From: Planctomycetia bacterium
Lineage (GTDB): Bacteria; Planctomycetota; Planctomycetia; Planctomycetales; Planctomycetaceae
Direction of reading: 5' to 3'
Length of the DNA: 46,815 nt
Assembly (NCBI GenBank): GCA_016200145.1
Contig: JACQFH010000397.1
Coordinates: 1 to 46,815 of the forward strand
Below the pieces are notes generated by a model that did not search any database, was not told where the DNA came from, and saw only the letters and a program-made list of their open reading frames with translations. Made by a program: the position numbers and the translations under genes. This document shows positions 33,972 to 40,598 of the stretch, piece after piece (position 1 is the first letter of the stretch; each line of letters begins with the position of its first letter).

Positions 33972-34840
33972 TGCCTTTGAGCATCATCGATCGCTGCCGG
34001 ATTGCTCTGGTCGCAGTTGCCCTGGCAACTGCGTTCCCGGGGTGTACGCAATGCCGCAATTTGCTCGGCTGGGGACCGCCGGTGCCTGCGCAATGCGCTT
34101 TGCCCGACGATGCGAACGCGCAGCAGATCGTTCTGTACCTGAACGACAACACGCACAAGCTGCGCGGCTGGCGGACGACCCGGGCCAAGATCTCCGCGCG
34201 GGGCAATATCCTCGTTCCGAAACTCGACGCCACAGTCGTCGTCGAGTCGCCGCGCAATTTTCGGCTGGTGGCCACTAATGTCACGGGGGGCCACGAAGTC
34301 GACCTGGGTTCGAACATCGAACAGTTCTGGTTCTGGGTACGGCGAAACGAAGACAAGCAGGTGGTTGTCGCTTCACACGATCTTGACCCTGAACGGATGC
34401 GGCGCTTCCCGTTTCCTTTCCAGCCCGACTGGATCATGGAAACGATGGGGGTCATCGCAATTGACCCTGAAGAGGATTTTGTGTTAAAGCCCGGTGCTGC
34501 CGGCTCACACGTCGCGACGCTGATCTCGAATCGCACGTCTCCGCAGGGGCACCCGGTTCGGAAAGTGACCGTGGTGGACCTGCGACAGGGCGTGATTCGC
34601 GAGCACGCACTCCTCGACGCACGGAATCAGCCCATCGCCAGGGCGGTTCTAAGCCAGCATGCTCGCGATAAGACGTCGGACGCGATGATCCCCACGAAAA
34701 TCGAGTTGGACTGGCCACAAGCCCAACTGGCGCTAACGATGACGCTCTCAGAAGTTGAAGTGAATCCCGCGCATTACTCGCAGAACACGTGGAAGCTGCC
34801 GCCGTTTCCGGGTTACGAGATTTACGACCTCAACCGCTAG
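33971..34840 (+). CDS. Probable lipoprotein, LolA-like fold
   Basis: ATG 33971 overlaps the preceding TAA, so translation is coupled. The 289-residue protein has a signal peptide ending ATAFPGCTQC with Cys as lipid site candidate, though the -3 position is not the usual Leu. Beta-rich sequence such as TTRAKISARGNILVPKLDATVVVESPRNFRLVATNVTG and QFWFWVRRNEDKQVVVASHD is reminiscent of lipoprotein carrier/LolA-like chaperones. Its TAG overlaps the stop of the next gene on the other strand by 3 bases. Function unknown. Confidence 0.75.
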   Translation: MPLSIIDRCRIALVAVALATAFPGCTQCRNLLGWGPPVPAQCALPDDANAQQIVLYLNDNTHKLRGWRTTRAKISARGNILVPKLDATVVVESPRNFRLVATNVTGGHEVDLGSNIEQFWFWVRRNEDKQVVVASHDLDPERMRRFPFPFQPDWIMETMGVIAIDPEEDFVLKPGAAGSHVATLISNRTSPQGHPVRKVTVVDLRQGVIREHALLDARNQPIARAVLSQHARDKTSDAMIPTKIELDWPQAQLALTMTLSEVEVNPAHYSQNTWKLPPFPGYEIYDLNR

Positions 34841-35268
34841 TCGATCAGCTCGCTGACTTTCTTTTCGATCGTCAGGTGCTCGGGCGTCTTCTCAGAGACG
34901 TAGCGCACGAGGTGCAGCTCAAATCTCTCGTATTCGCTCAAATTGACGTGCTGCCTGGCCAGTGCAATCACCCGATCGGCAATCGTCGCGACTCGCGGGT
35001 CGCTTTCCGTGGGAGCGAAATCGACTTCCATCACCACTCGCAGCAGCGCGGGTTTGTTCCGCGGCCGCCCCCCCTTCACATGCGGTTTCGATGCAGGAAA
35101 CTCGGTCTTGATCGCCCGGGCCAGGGGCTGGAACGGCGCCAGCTCGACTTGTGCGTAGACCCAGATCCCTCCGGTGAGGAACAGGCCAAAGGCGATCATC
35201 CCCAGCACGACCCATTTGCCGGAAATCGTTCGGGGCTGCGGCTGAAGGTTTGGCTCAGGCATTCTCAT
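34837..35268 (-). CDS. Small single-pass membrane protein
   Basis: The 143-residue product has one transmembrane helix near residues 18-38 (WVVLGMIAFGLFLTGGIWVYA), and a periplasmic tail rich in charged residues (VMEVDFAPTESDPRVATIADRVIALARQHVNL). No known domain can be named. It is the third gene after leuA, 6 bases from the redoxin-like gene. Confidence 0.65.
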   Translation of the reverse strand: MRMPEPNLQPQPRTISGKWVVLGMIAFGLFLTGGIWVYAQVELAPFQPLARAIKTEFPASKPHVKGGRPRNKPALLRVVMEVDFAPTESDPRVATIADRVIALARQHVNLSEYERFELHLVRYVSEKTPEHLTIEKKVSELID

Positions 35269-35274
35269 CGGGTC

Positions 35275-35868
35275 CTAGCGCACGTCCCGCAGTTCGCGAA
35301 TCCAGTCGTCGACGCCGCCGAGTTTCGCGGCGCCGATGTGGGAATATTGAATCAACCCGACGCGATCAACGACAAACACGGCTTCGATGGGCTGATTCGC
35401 CTCGGCATCGAACGCCCCATAGCGGCGGTGTTCCTGGTAATCGAGGATATCCGAGAGCAGGGGAAACGGGAATTGCAGCTCGTCTTCGGGTCTTTCTTCG
35501 CCGGACCGGCGCCGCTCCAGGTTGACGCCGTATCTGTTCTGCGCAGGGCGCGCCGCGCTGATCGCCAGCACCGCCGCGCCCGTCCGCTTCAGGTCTGAAA
35601 AGCGATCTCGCAGAGCGGCCACAAGGGGGTTACGGTCGGGCCCGTGCGTGCCGTCGAAGAAGACGATGAGTACCTTCTGGCGGCCGCGGTAGCGCTGGTC
35701 AAATCTCACGGGCCGCGAGTGCTCATCGGCCAGGATGAACGGCGGTGCCGGCTGGGGCTTCTCGTAGTCTGCATCGCGCAGAGGTTCGTAGCGCCGCGTG
35801 AGCTTGTACGCGGCAAGGCCGAAGATCGCAGCCGCAGCCAGCGGAAGTATGAAAAAAATGCGCCGCAT
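35275..35868 (-). CDS. Membrane-anchored redoxin-like protein
   Basis: The 197-residue protein has an N-terminal helix (FFILPLAAAAIFGLAAY) and an AhpC/TSA-redoxin pattern (PPFILADEHSRPVRFDQRYRG, QKVLIVFFDGTHGPDRNPLVAAL, IEAVFVVDRVGLIQYSH). The peroxidatic Cys position is occupied by residues around FFDGTHGPD, so classical peroxiredoxin activity is unlikely. It begins 1 base after leuA's stop, so it is co-transcribed with leuA and would share its attenuator. Confidence 0.75.
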   Translation of the reverse strand: MRRIFFILPLAAAAIFGLAAYKLTRRYEPLRDADYEKPQPAPPFILADEHSRPVRFDQRYRGRQKVLIVFFDGTHGPDRNPLVAALRDRFSDLKRTGAAVLAISAARPAQNRYGVNLERRRSGEERPEDELQFPFPLLSDILDYQEHRRYGAFDAEANQPIEAVFVVDRVGLIQYSHIGAAKLGGVDDWIRELRDVR

Positions 35869-35869
35869 A

Positions 35870-37423
35870 TCATTCGTGCTGCGCGTGCAGGGGTTTTCGC
35901 GTATCGCGGTTGGCGGCGGCCTTGTTCAGCGCCTTGAGGTATGCCCGGGCGCTGGCCTCGATGATGTCGGTGCTGGCAGCCTTACCGTGAAACACGTGGT
36001 TGTTGTGCTCGATCTCGACGAGCACTTCGCCCTGAGCCTCTTTTCCGACCGTCAGGCTGCGCACCTGGTAATTCTGGAGGCGGGCGTGGATGTGCGTGAT
36101 CCGCTCGAGCGCGTTGAACACCGCGTCGATCGGCCCGTCGCCGATGGCTGCGTCGCGGACGGGAGGTTGCCCGTCTTCGACGAGCTCAATCGTCGCCGTG
36201 GGAATTGCACCCGACCCGGCGGAGGTGTGAAATGCGGCCAATTTCCAGCGGTCGGGGGTTTCCGTGCTGCGGTTCTCGACGAGCGCCAGGATATCGGCGT
36301 CGTAGACGTTCTTTTTCTTGTCGCACAGTGCGATGAAGTCGTCGAAGACTTTCTCAAACGTCGCGTCGTCGAGGCTCTGGCCCAGGTGTTCGATCCGGTC
36401 GCGGAAGGCGTGCCGACCGCTGTGCTTGCCCAGCACGAGGTTACTGCCCGTGAATCCGACGTCTTCGGGCCGCATGATCTCGTAGGTCGTCCGTTCCATC
36501 AGCATGCCGTGCTGGTGGATCCCGGCCTCGTGGGCAAACGCGTTCTGACCCACGATGGCCTTGTTCCGCTGGACAGTCATGCCGGTGATGCTCGACACGA
36601 GCCGGCTGACGCCGCACAGTTTCTTCGTGTTAATGCCGGTCGTCAGTTTGTAGTAATCGCTGCGGGTGCGCAGGGCCATCACGATCTCTTCGAGCGCGGC
36701 GTTGCCGGCCCGCTCACCGAGCCCGTTAATCGTACACTCGACCTGGCGGGCGCCGGCCTCAACCGCGGCCAGGCTGTTGGCAACGGCCAGCCCGAGGTCG
36801 TTGTGGCAATGCGTGCTGATGACCGCCTGCGCGATGTTGGGGACGTTCTGCTTCAAGTGACTGATCACGTGGAAGTAATGCGACGGCGTGGCATAGCCGA
36901 CGGTGTCGGGAATGTTGACGGTCGTTGCGCCGGCGGCGATCGCCTTTTCTACGACTTCCGAAAGGAAATCCAGCTCGGTCCGCGCGGCGTCCTCAGGTGA
37001 AAACTCGACGTCGTCGCAGAGGCCTTTGGCGCGCTTGACCGATTCCACCGCCTTCGCGATGATCTCAGGCTTGTCCATGTTCAGTTTGTACTGGCGATGG
37101 ATCGAACTGGTTGCGAGAAACACGTGGATCCGCCGGTTCTTCGCGTCGTTGAGGGCGCTTCCGGCGCGATCGATGTCTTCTTCGCGGCAGCGGGCCAGGC
37201 CGCAGATTTTAGGTCCCCGGTCGCCGAACTGGCGGGCGATTGCCTGCACGGCCTCGAAATCCCCGGGAGAGGCGATCGGGAACCCGGCCTCGATCACGTC
37301 GACCCCCAGATCCACAAGCGCCCCCGCGATTTCCAGCTTTTCGGCCGTGTTCATGCTGCAGCCGGGGGATTGCTCGCCATCGCGGAGCGTGGTGTCGAAG
37401 ATGATGACGCGGTCGGAGGACAT
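35870..37423 (-). CDS. leuA: 2-isopropylmalate synthase
   Basis: ATG at 37423 gives 517 residues; the longer frame from 37486 reads through the attenuator's downstream region. The DRE-TIM metallolyase signature is complete: FDTTLRDGEQSPG at about 9-21, STHCHNDLGLAVANSLAA (metal-binding HxH) and the Gly-rich NGLGERAGN. Beyond about 390 lies the LeuA regulatory domain for leucine feedback. The enzyme joins acetyl-CoA and 2-oxoisovalerate as the first step of leucine synthesis. A leader with Leu-rich peptide and terminator lies 60-250 bases upstream, so transcription should respond to charged tRNA-Leu. Two small membrane genes follow tightly. Confidence 0.97.
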   Translation of the reverse strand: MSSDRVIIFDTTLRDGEQSPGCSMNTAEKLEIAGALVDLGVDVIEAGFPIASPGDFEAVQAIARQFGDRGPKICGLARCREEDIDRAGSALNDAKNRRIHVFLATSSIHRQYKLNMDKPEIIAKAVESVKRAKGLCDDVEFSPEDAARTELDFLSEVVEKAIAAGATTVNIPDTVGYATPSHYFHVISHLKQNVPNIAQAVISTHCHNDLGLAVANSLAAVEAGARQVECTINGLGERAGNAALEEIVMALRTRSDYYKLTTGINTKKLCGVSRLVSSITGMTVQRNKAIVGQNAFAHEAGIHQHGMLMERTTYEIMRPEDVGFTGSNLVLGKHSGRHAFRDRIEHLGQSLDDATFEKVFDDFIALCDKKKNVYDADILALVENRSTETPDRWKLAAFHTSAGSGAIPTATIELVEDGQPPVRDAAIGDGPIDAVFNALERITHIHARLQNYQVRSLTVGKEAQGEVLVEIEHNNHVFHGKAASTDIIEASARAYLKALNKAAANRDTRKPLHAQHE

Positions 37424-37484
37424 GGGGAACTCTCGAAAAAGGGGGTTACAGAATTCTACGCGGAACCGGGTCTGTCGATAAGCC

Positions 37485-37518
37485 AAACAAAAAACCCTGA
37501 GACCAGAAGGTCTCAGGG
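37485..37518 (-). terminator. Attenuator hairpin before leuA
   Basis: On the minus strand CCCTGAGACC-TTCT-GGTCTCAGGG (37518-37495) is a perfect 10-bp stem followed by TTTTTTGTTT. This is a strong intrinsic terminator. It lies 72 bases before the leuA ATG, and the 3' arm has a near copy in the leader at 37551-37559. Confidence 0.9.
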
Positions 37519-37551
37519 CTTTGGTGATTTTCAGCTAGTGCTGTATGGAAC

Positions 37552-37617
37552 CTAAGACCTCCCTCGTGAAGAGGGGCTAAGCAGCAGGCCAAGGGACAGC
37601 AGATTCAACTTTGACAT
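37552..37617 (-). CDS. leuL: LeuA leader peptide
   Basis: ATG at 37617 to TAG at 37552-37554 encodes 21 residues starting MSKLNLLSLGLLLS. Seven of the 21 are Leu (4, 6, 7, 9, 11, 12, 13), with three in a row (CTG CTG CTT) at codons 11-13. AGGA lies 11 bases upstream, a little distant. The peptide itself should have no function; its codons sense charged tRNA-Leu. The symbol is used by analogy with enteric leuL. Confidence 0.78.
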   Translation of the reverse strand: MSKLNLLSLGLLLSPSSRGRS

Positions 37618-37645
37618 CGTGGAGATTTTCCTGACGGACGACTTT

Positions 37646-37674
37646 ACTCTATCCGCGGCCTGAGAGAGCGTCAA
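37646..37674 (-). promoter_or_regulatory. Sigma70-like promoter of leuA
   Basis: TTGACG (37674-37669), a 17-base spacer, then TAGAGT (37651-37646) on the minus strand. The -35 has 5 and the -10 has 4 of 6 consensus bases. It lies 33 bases after the stop of the RND gene, and the start near 37639 leaves about 22 bases before the leader ATG. Confidence 0.65.
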
Positions 37675-37706
37675 GCGGAAACGAAGGTTCGCGCTATCGC
37701 TGCGGA

Positions 37707-40598
37707 TCAATCTGCGCGACGAATGCGGACCACCTTCCGAACCAGGTGCGGCTTGGCCGGCACGGTCGGTTCGTCGAGCCGTTCGCGCTGTTCATTGGCG
37801 GTGACTTCGGGCTTCTCGGAAACCACAGCGACGGCAGGGCCGCGAGCGGCCAGCTCGATGATGTATCCCAGGGGGCCTGCCAGCAGGGCCGGCGTCAGAA
37901 TCAGATCGCTGATCGACGCGGCGGCCAGCAACGCTGTCATCAGCCACCCGAACCGGCTGATCAGAATCAGGTCTGAGGGATAGAGCATCAAGAGGCCGAT
38001 GCTGACGACCAGCGTCGTCTGCCACATCGCCGGCCCGCAATGACCCATCGCCAGGCTGACCGCTTCGGCCCGGGACTTTCCTTCCTGGATCCCGAGGCGG
38101 AACCAGGTAATCAGGTGCAGAGTGCCGTCGATCGTGATTCCCAGCGCGATCGACGCGGTGACGGTCGATCCAATGTCGACCTGCACGCCGCACCACGAGA
38201 TCACGCCGAACACGGCTGCGATCGGCAATACGTTGGGGACCATCGCCAGAAAGCCGGCGATCGGGTTGCGGAGTACGAGCATCACCACGATCGCAATGCT
38301 GGCAAACGCCCCGAGGAAGCTGGTCACAAAGCTCGAGAGCAATTCATGCTGCGTGGCCAGGAACAGGGGAATCTCGCCGGTCACGAAGTGGCTTGCGCCG
38401 GGATGATAGCTGCGCAGGGCGCCGGCCGGCACGACTTTTTCGGCCGTCCCCGCCGTTTTTCGCAGGACCGAGCTGCAGATTTCGTCGAGCTCGCTGCGCA
38501 GCTCCTGATAGTTGCGACGCGACATGATGGCCACCTGCGCGGTGATCCGCCACAGCTCGTCGCCTTCGGCATTGAATTCGGTCGCGTCGTCGGCGATCAC
38601 CAGCAGGCTTTTGGCGCCGGGCTGGTCGCCTGATTTGACGCGGTCTTCGATGACGCGCGAACTGGCGCTGTATCTGGCCCGCTCGCGGGTGTGCGCCTGG
38701 TCGCCCGGATCAGCCAGATCGGACAGAAAGTCGACAAGCGACAGCGAGCCGCTGATGTCGGAGAGTTTCTCCATTTCGGTTTGAATCTGCCGAATCAGAT
38801 CGCGGCGCTGCAGAAACTTCAGCTCCTGCTGACTCTCGCGGTCGAATCGCACGATGACGTCGACCGGTATGATTCCCGCCATGTGGTCTTCGATGAAACC
38901 GTAATCTTTGACGGTTTGCGTGCTGTCGGCAAAGTAACGGATGACCTTGGTTTCCGTCTTGAACCACGCCAGTCCACCGATGCAGACTGTCGAAACGAGC
39001 AGGCTGATCACCGTCACCATCCGGTGATGGCGCACAATCCAGGTCGCCAGGCCATTCCAGAACGCATTGTTCAGTTCTTCGGCGCGCGGGGCCCTGGCCG
39101 GCCAGATTTGCAGCAGCGCGGGCAGGCCGTACAGGATCACCGCCAGAGAAATCAGCGTGCCGATCGCCGAGTACAACCCGAAGTCGCGGATCGGCGCGAG
39201 CGAACTCGTGAGCAGCGACGCCTGGCCGATCGCCGATGTCAGGCCCGCCCAGAGACAGGGCACGAACGCCGTCTTGACGGCCTCGGCGACGGCGGTTTTG
39301 AGATCGGCGGCCGCGGCATGCTGCCAGTAATTCGCAATGTGGATCGCGGCCGACAGCGTCGTGACCAGGATCAGTGTCGGCAGAACGACCAGCACCATGT
39401 TCATGGTCCCGCCGGTCATGGGAACGAGTGCCGTCGAAACCAACGTCGTGTAGTACGATACTCCCAGCACCATCCCTGCCAGCTTGAAGCTCTTCAGCAG
39501 CCACAGCGCGAGGATCCCGCCGACCAGCCCCGACAGCAGGATGATCGAGCGGCGATGGATCTGCGACGCCGGAGCGGCCTTGTCCCACACCGACTTCATC
39601 ACTTCGCGATTGAGGGCCGAACCGATCACGGCGCTGCCCCCCATGTGAATTGTATTGGGCGCGATGCCCGATTTTTCGGCCGCTGCGGTCAGCCATCGAA
39701 ACGCTTCGTTGCGATCTGCGTTGCCGGCTTCCGAAAGGTAAATCGCCAGCGCGATCGGCGTGCCGGCCACGTGAAAACAGTCTTCCACGACGGCGTGGCC
39801 CGGCTCATCGGGGCGCGAAGCCGGCAGCCGCAACTGGCCGACGAGTGCTTTGAGCGCTGCCATCTTGGCCGCGTCCCAGTGCATACCTCGCCAGGTGACG
39901 ATCAGGTCGTGATGCGGCAGCGGGGTGACGCTTTCGCCCGCGGGCGATTCGCCGCCAGAGGTCTCCGTAGAGGCGTCGGCAGATCCATCGCTCGTGGCCG
40001 GAGGATCGGTTGCGACGGGGGCCGTGGCCATCAGTCCCTCGGCGGCAACGGATTCGGCCGGGGCGATTTCCAGGTCGATGGCCAGCGCTTCGCGTGCCGA
40101 GCGGCGCAGCAGATCGACAACTTTCTCGCGGCGCGCCTTGCCGAATTCATTCAATCGGACACGCACGGGGCCGGGGCCGATCAGAACTCCATCCAGCCGC
40201 TCGATCGCGTCGCTTCGCGAGATCTTGTTTTTCTGCATCCGCGCGATTAAGTCGTGCGGCGAGCAGACGCGCTCGATGAATTTCGAGCCCCCTCGCAGCT
40301 TGCCGTTCGCGTCTACCGTTCCGCGGATCTTCCCGACCAGGCGCTCGGCCCGGGGATCATCCAGGCTGCTCCCTTCCCAGGTAAACAAGACGACTTCGTC
40401 GAGCGGAAAGTGGCTGCGATACCACGAGACGACTTTGTAGTCGGGGTTATCTTTGGGGATCCAGTCGTGGACCTCGTTCTCCATTTTCATGGACACGAGG
40501 CTCCACAGGCAGATGGGGATCAGGAACACCATCCCCACGACGGCCCATACGGCCAGTGCGTTGCCCCAACGGTCTTTCTTCTCAAGGAATTGCAGCAT
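37707..40598 (-). CDS. RND/MMPL-family transporter
   Basis: ATG at 40598 has AGGA just upstream and starts MLQFLEKKDRWGNALAVWAV; ATG 40625 is also possible. The product of about 963 residues has the RND layout: one helix, a large periplasmic loop (about 60-370), five or so helices (SIILLSGLVGGILALWLL, LIL and LVVLPTLIL), then a second helix-loop-helix set ending with IAGFLAMVPNVLPIAAVFGVISW and a terminal helix. The first loop holds a Pro/Ser/Thr/Glu-rich stretch that is not part of the fold. Substrate unknown; HpnN-like hopanoid transport is possible given shc nearby, but equally lipid or peptide export. No adaptor is adjacent. Confidence 0.88.
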   Translation of the reverse strand: MLQFLEKKDRWGNALAVWAVVGMVFLIPICLWSLVSMKMENEVHDWIPKDNPDYKVVSWYRSHFPLDEVVLFTWEGSSLDDPRAERLVGKIRGTVDANGKLRGGSKFIERVCSPHDLIARMQKNKISRSDAIERLDGVLIGPGPVRVRLNEFGKARREKVVDLLRRSAREALAIDLEIAPAESVAAEGLMATAPVATDPPATSDGSADASTETSGGESPAGESVTPLPHHDLIVTWRGMHWDAAKMAALKALVGQLRLPASRPDEPGHAVVEDCFHVAGTPIALAIYLSEAGNADRNEAFRWLTAAAEKSGIAPNTIHMGGSAVIGSALNREVMKSVWDKAAPASQIHRRSIILLSGLVGGILALWLLKSFKLAGMVLGVSYYTTLVSTALVPMTGGTMNMVLVVLPTLILVTTLSAAIHIANYWQHAAAADLKTAVAEAVKTAFVPCLWAGLTSAIGQASLLTSSLAPIRDFGLYSAIGTLISLAVILYGLPALLQIWPARAPRAEELNNAFWNGLATWIVRHHRMVTVISLLVSTVCIGGLAWFKTETKVIRYFADSTQTVKDYGFIEDHMAGIIPVDVIVRFDRESQQELKFLQRRDLIRQIQTEMEKLSDISGSLSLVDFLSDLADPGDQAHTRERARYSASSRVIEDRVKSGDQPGAKSLLVIADDATEFNAEGDELWRITAQVAIMSRRNYQELRSELDEICSSVLRKTAGTAEKVVPAGALRSYHPGASHFVTGEIPLFLATQHELLSSFVTSFLGAFASIAIVVMLVLRNPIAGFLAMVPNVLPIAAVFGVISWCGVQVDIGSTVTASIALGITIDGTLHLITWFRLGIQEGKSRAEAVSLAMGHCGPAMWQTTLVVSIGLLMLYPSDLILISRFGWLMTALLAAASISDLILTPALLAGPLGYIIELAARGPAVAVVSEKPEVTANEQRERLDEPTVPAKPHLVRKVVRIRRAD

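Follow-up and report, generated by a model that had tools for sequence, protein, structure and literature searches.

A probable ribosome-mediated leucine attenuator upstream of leuA in Planctomycetota

Attenuation of leucine biosynthesis through translation of a leader peptide is known in enteric bacteria. A sequence-only reading of a 46,815-nucleotide contig from a Planctomycetia bacterium (the window, by which we mean the whole stretch of DNA analysed) proposed such an attenuator ahead of leuA, raising the question of whether the short leucine-rich reading frame and the hairpin that follows it act together on leuA, or are an accident of sequence between two genes.

Along the minus strand, the region is ordered as promoter, 21-codon Leu-rich ORF, antiterminator strand lying over the stop codon of that ORF, terminator and leuA (Table 1). 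The promoter, peptide and terminator are all present, exact to the base, as the sequence-only reading described them. The leader ORF reads ATG TCA AAG TTG AAT CTG CTG TCC CTT GGC CTG CTG CTT AGC CCC TCT TCA CGA GGG AGG TCT TAG, its Leu codons being, in order, TTG CTG CTG CTT CTG CTG CTT. A ribosome-binding site for the leader peptide is not obvious, with an AGGA rather far upstream. The leuA gene is present as a single copy in its own genome, and its product scores 721 bits against TIGR00973 (cut-off 599). Directly 3' of leuA on the same strand (window positions 34837-35868) are a peroxiredoxin/thioredoxin-like ORF of 197 aa and an ORF of 143 aa for which no family match was found; both may be cotranscribed with leuA.

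Table 1. Positions of the elements upstream of leuA in the window.
Feature	Position	Strand	Basis and remarks
-35 box TTGACG	37669-37674	-	sequence; sigma70-like promoter
-10 box TAGAGT	37646-37651	-	17-bp spacer to -35; similar box and equal spacing in relatives
Leader peptide ORF MSKLNLLSLGLLLSPSSRGRS*	37552-37617	-	sequence; 21 codons, 7 Leu
Candidate 1:2 (pause/protector) hairpin CCCTC-TTCAC-GAGGG	37561-37575	-	pairs by inspection; precedes strand 2
Antiterminator strand (strand 2) GGGAGGTCTTAGG	37551-37563	-	overlaps TAG stop of leader peptide
Intrinsic terminator hairpin (strands 3 and 4) CCCTGAGACC-TTCT-GGTCTCAGGG	37495-37518	-	fold; perfect 10-bp stem
Terminator U-run TTTTTT	37489-37494	-	sequence
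leuA, 2-isopropylmalate synthase, 517 aa, regulated gene	35870-37423	-	NCBIfam TIGR00973 and NF002086 above cut-off

The antiterminator had been described as a 9-base strand at the peptide stop codon, identical at eight of nine bases to the terminator 3' arm GGTCTCAGG. Both its position (GGTCTTAGG, 37559-37551) and this match hold, and the ninth base gives a G-U pair; as a refinement, the strand proves longer than described (GGGAGGTCTTAGG) and pairs over 13 bp. When the transcript is cut at 37500, leaving the terminator 3' arm incomplete, folding favours a 13-bp helix of GGGAGGTCTTAGG with CCTGAGACCTTCT, the partner (37517-37505) being made up of the terminator 5' arm plus loop. Once the U-run is transcribed, the terminator becomes the best fold. 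Folding of the whole leader, proposed as a check alongside the original claim, showed the 161-nt RNA to be stabler than all 200 shuffles (z = -3.1).

For comparison, leuA upstream regions were sampled from 59 near relatives, from named genome contigs and by a draw over the phylum, the named near relatives being Planctomycetaceae and Planctomicrobium-like MAGs. Recognised duplicate loci were removed, and a few close pairs remain. Our detector required a GC-rich hairpin, 4 or more T among the 8 bases after it, and an ORF of 10-40 codons ahead of it, with a threshold of 5 or more Leu in 12 codons. Within the family, a terminator-like hairpin was found in 49/49 leuA upstream regions; in 43/49 the preceding ORF passed the Leu threshold, these ORFs being similar in length and position to that of the window. 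The detector responded to 1 of 780 shuffles, 2 of 130 reverse complements and none of 750 segments taken elsewhere in these loci, so the chance of finding a hairpin plus a Leu-rich ORF is about 0.1% or less. Two family members without a hit in one scan are accounted for, in that the leader of L030 is clear but lies farther upstream and L026 is cut by the contig end; inspection and a laxer detector also revealed true terminators without TTTT directly after the stem (L007, L029, L034, L035, L067 and others). Relatives thus keep the Leu-rich ORF, antiterminator strand and terminator together, which supports the leucine-attenuator reading, and in the family we did not encounter the case named as counting against it, a hairpin kept while the Leu codons are lost.

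Compensatory change is seen in the terminator. An alignment of 26 family members has double-sided compensatory changes at 7 of the 11 terminator pairs and 96.5% of cells paired, and 0 of 500 shuffles reach its covariation score. For the antiterminator helix, covariation in a fixed-register alignment did not exceed that of shuffles (179/500, with 88.5% of cells paired), which we attribute to the strong conservation of GGTCTTAGG together with shifts of register. In a register-free test, strand 2 of each leader was paired either with its own terminator 5' arm plus loop or with that of another species. Over 61 leaders, strand 2 averaged -20.0 kcal/mol with its own strand 3 and -16.1 kcal/mol with swapped ones, a difference reached in 0 of 10,000 permutations, and the result holds in the family and, separately, in the other families of the class; an earlier version using the 5' arm alone gave 0/5000 over all. 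Twelve leaders from other families of the phylum, quite different in sequence, gave -21.9 for own and -16.5 for swapped partners, and in the leader of L162 the pairing of ACGCTGGATAGGGC with GCCCTGTCCAGCGT also lies across a TAG stop. Strand 2 therefore fits its own strand 3 best, and support for the predicted antiterminator helix comes from this swap test and from conservation. The same kind of test was marginal for the 1:2 hairpin (449/10,000), and similar hairpins are found in many relatives; a classical 1:2 hairpin may be present.

The placement and choice of Leu codons provide a further line of evidence. Most Leu codons fall between positions -16 and -9 relative to the stop, and positions -3 to -1 are almost free of them (1/96). 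In a set of 45 family and 16 other Planctomycetia leaders (for example L011, L014, L023 and L047), CTA makes up 46 of 237 Leu codons, compared with 2 of 1298 in leuA of the same genomes, an enrichment of about 126-fold; CTT is enriched 3.5-fold in the same comparison. CTA occurs 60 times in frame in the leaders, the counts for the two alternative frames being 1 and 7. This enrichment, confined to the reading frame, is an independent sign that the ORF is translated and would serve as a tRNA sensor. The leader of the window has no CTA, using mostly the common CTG together with the rarer CTT (two codons).

The element is specific to leuA. A covariance model of the leader, run against the 8.3-Mb genome to which the window belongs, gave one full match, at leuA (E = 1.8e-27), and no comparable leader was found before 29 ilvB and 27 leuC genes of the genomes compared, on which ground we reject a general attenuation of branched-chain amino acid genes there. 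In the genome of the window, leuA, leuC (G000:C730) and ilvB (G000:C97) lie on different contigs, with the attenuator at leuA only. A plasmid search returned matches to leuA coding sequence only.

There are three other explanations that we have considered. The hairpin might be the terminator of the gene upstream and the short ORF a chance reading frame, given that an MMPL-type transporter gene on the same strand ends at 37707, at a distance of 189 nt from the hairpin. The intervening sequence, however, holds the conserved Leu-rich ORF and a conserved promoter: a near-consensus TTGACN-N17-TANNNT precedes the leader ORF in 25 of 45 members of the family, compared with 1.6% of shuffles. Which gene precedes the leader varies from genus to genus: the transporter occupies that place only in the same genus, whereas leuA still has its leader in every other genus; a chance ORF is further opposed by the detector controls given above. 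We reject this explanation as extremely improbable, as upstream synteny is not conserved while the leader is. Because the upstream genes differ, a conserved promoter lies between them and the hairpin, and ilvB and leuC have no such leader, we conclude that the leader belongs to leuA. Hardly more credible is control of the terminator by a small-molecule riboswitch, a T-box or a bound protein, with the peptide incidental. Leaders of all these types can contain a competing antiterminator and terminator, but no Rfam family reaches its gathering score anywhere in the window. At E of 10 or below, the interval 37400-37720 contains no match to a T-box or to Leu_leader, which we take to be the enteric leu operon attenuator (leuL), the only match being leuA-Halobacteria, at 17.8 of the required 47.9 bits and over the promoter region. 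RNAalifold applied to the leaders recovers the terminator alone and no conserved aptamer-like structure, and an incidental peptide is difficult to reconcile with Leu codon positions and rare-codon use that are conserved in frame.

The remaining explanation retains Leu-dependent stalling on the leader peptide, and has it control translation of leuA, or access of Rho, rather than intrinsic termination. This is suggested by leaders in f3, a family of the same class that is probably Gemmataceae, in which a strong hairpin and a weak T-run come after the Leu-rich ORF (L041:832-980, L044, L045 and L051). The f3 hairpin adjoins the leuA Shine-Dalgarno sequence, and the weak T-run reads GATTTCGTTT in L041, which suggests a translational or mixed variant in f3. 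In the window and its family, on the other hand, six or more U come after the hairpin, its distance to the start codon is about 50 nt or more in most cases, and the leuA ribosome-binding site has no part in it. For the window we therefore regard control of translation as very unlikely, if a little less so than the two preceding explanations.

Our conclusion is that the element in the window is very probably a classical ribosome-mediated transcription attenuator of leuA. We infer that ribosomes stall in the leader, that leucine is the signal, and that the hairpin decides between termination and readthrough. RNA polymerase would start just 3' of TAGAGT and transcribe a leader of about 150 nt, on which a ribosome would begin the 21-codon peptide. 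With charged tRNA-Leu in ample supply, the ribosome would proceed to the stop codon inside strand 2 and cover that strand, in which case the terminator (strands 3 and 4) could form and transcription would end before leuA. Were leucyl-tRNA scarce, the ribosome would be expected to stall at the Leu cluster, which lies 9-16 codons ahead of the stop. Strand 2, left free, would then form ~13 bp with the 5' arm and loop of the terminator, preventing the terminator and allowing transcription of leuA.

How widespread is the element? The sequence-only reading understated its extent: besides its presence throughout the family, the element is met again in further families of Planctomycetia and, beyond that class, in several families elsewhere in the phylum. 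The detector found it in 15 of 21 leuA upstream regions from other families of the class (f2-f7) and in 12 of 60 from other families of the phylum. Leu-rich leaders with a self-matching antiterminator and terminator, unrelated in sequence, were observed before leuA in L147, L152 (f53), L162 (f59), L187, L191 and L192 (f36), as well as in L193-L196 (f27), L144 (f35) and L137 (f33); the f27 leader peptides share a conserved PRGAPG at the end. Such a leader was not found in f44, f47, f68 or f69, and f15 yielded none with at least 5 Leu. Leucine attenuation of leuA may be an old trait of Planctomycetota that extends over Planctomycetia and several further families, uses rare CUA codons as sensors, and has a ribosome tracking RNA polymerase even in f3; this broader proposal we hold tentatively and consider somewhat more likely to be wrong than right.

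The documented cases of leader-peptide attenuation come mainly from Proteobacteria, Actinobacteria and Firmicutes. A survey from 2010 stated that, besides its own Firmicutes case, none had been shown outside Proteobacteria and Actinobacteria (PMC2965389), and the attenuator of the Staphylococcus aureus ilv-leu operon was reported after that survey (PMC5794164). We found no report of leader-peptide attenuation in planctomycetes in a search outside which most subscription journals lay, and an older prediction is possible, for example in Lopatovskaya et al. 2010, which we know through its citation in PMC4833913. The kind of system is thus a known one, that of the enteric leu operon, and is new for Planctomycetota as far as the literature searched extends. 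Its interest lies in its breadth and in the coupling that it requires, in a phylum where coupling has been questioned: the compartments of planctomycete cells, and the segregation of transcription from translation claimed for Gemmata, are debated (PMC5287468, PMC5394234). Since the proposed mechanism needs a ribosome close behind RNA polymerase, the leader would provide a ready-made genetic test of transcription-translation coupling, and it could also serve as a natural leucine-responsive switch for genetic work in planctomycetes. If the broader proposal is true, ribosomes would track RNA polymerase even in a lineage for which separation of the two processes has been claimed (f3, probably Gemmataceae).

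Among known systems, the leu attenuator of Salmonella and Escherichia coli shares with the planctomycete leader a Leu-rich leader peptide, a strand 2 that is freed, or in the planctomycete case predicted to be freed, by a stalled ribosome, a terminator with a U-run, and the use of rare CUA. Three CUA codons in the Salmonella leu leader render its attenuation sensitive (PMC1183508, discussing Carter et al. 1986), and the enrichment of CTA in planctomycete leaders parallels this use of CUA. The two differ in that Rfam models detect no sequence similarity, that leuA stands alone behind the planctomycete leader with leuC elsewhere and without one, and that strand 2 here lies on the stop codon of the peptide. 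The S. aureus ilv-leu attenuator peptide likewise combines Leu codons, a terminator and antiterminator, and leucine as the signal, as proposed here, but belongs to another phylum and controls the whole ilv-leu operon from ilvD (PMC5794164). In the LEU element of Actinobacteria (PMC1262725) there is again a short ORF with a run of Leu codons 5' of leuA, but that element folds as a pseudoknot with the leuA Shine-Dalgarno sequence taking part in its base stem, where the planctomycete leader has an intrinsic terminator and competing antiterminator. Motifs of the Corynebacterium ilvB-II type (PMC11109978, PMC10272879) resemble the planctomycete leader in pairing an antiterminator and terminator with an upstream ORF rich in codons for the product amino acid, and differ from it in gene, phylum and sequence.
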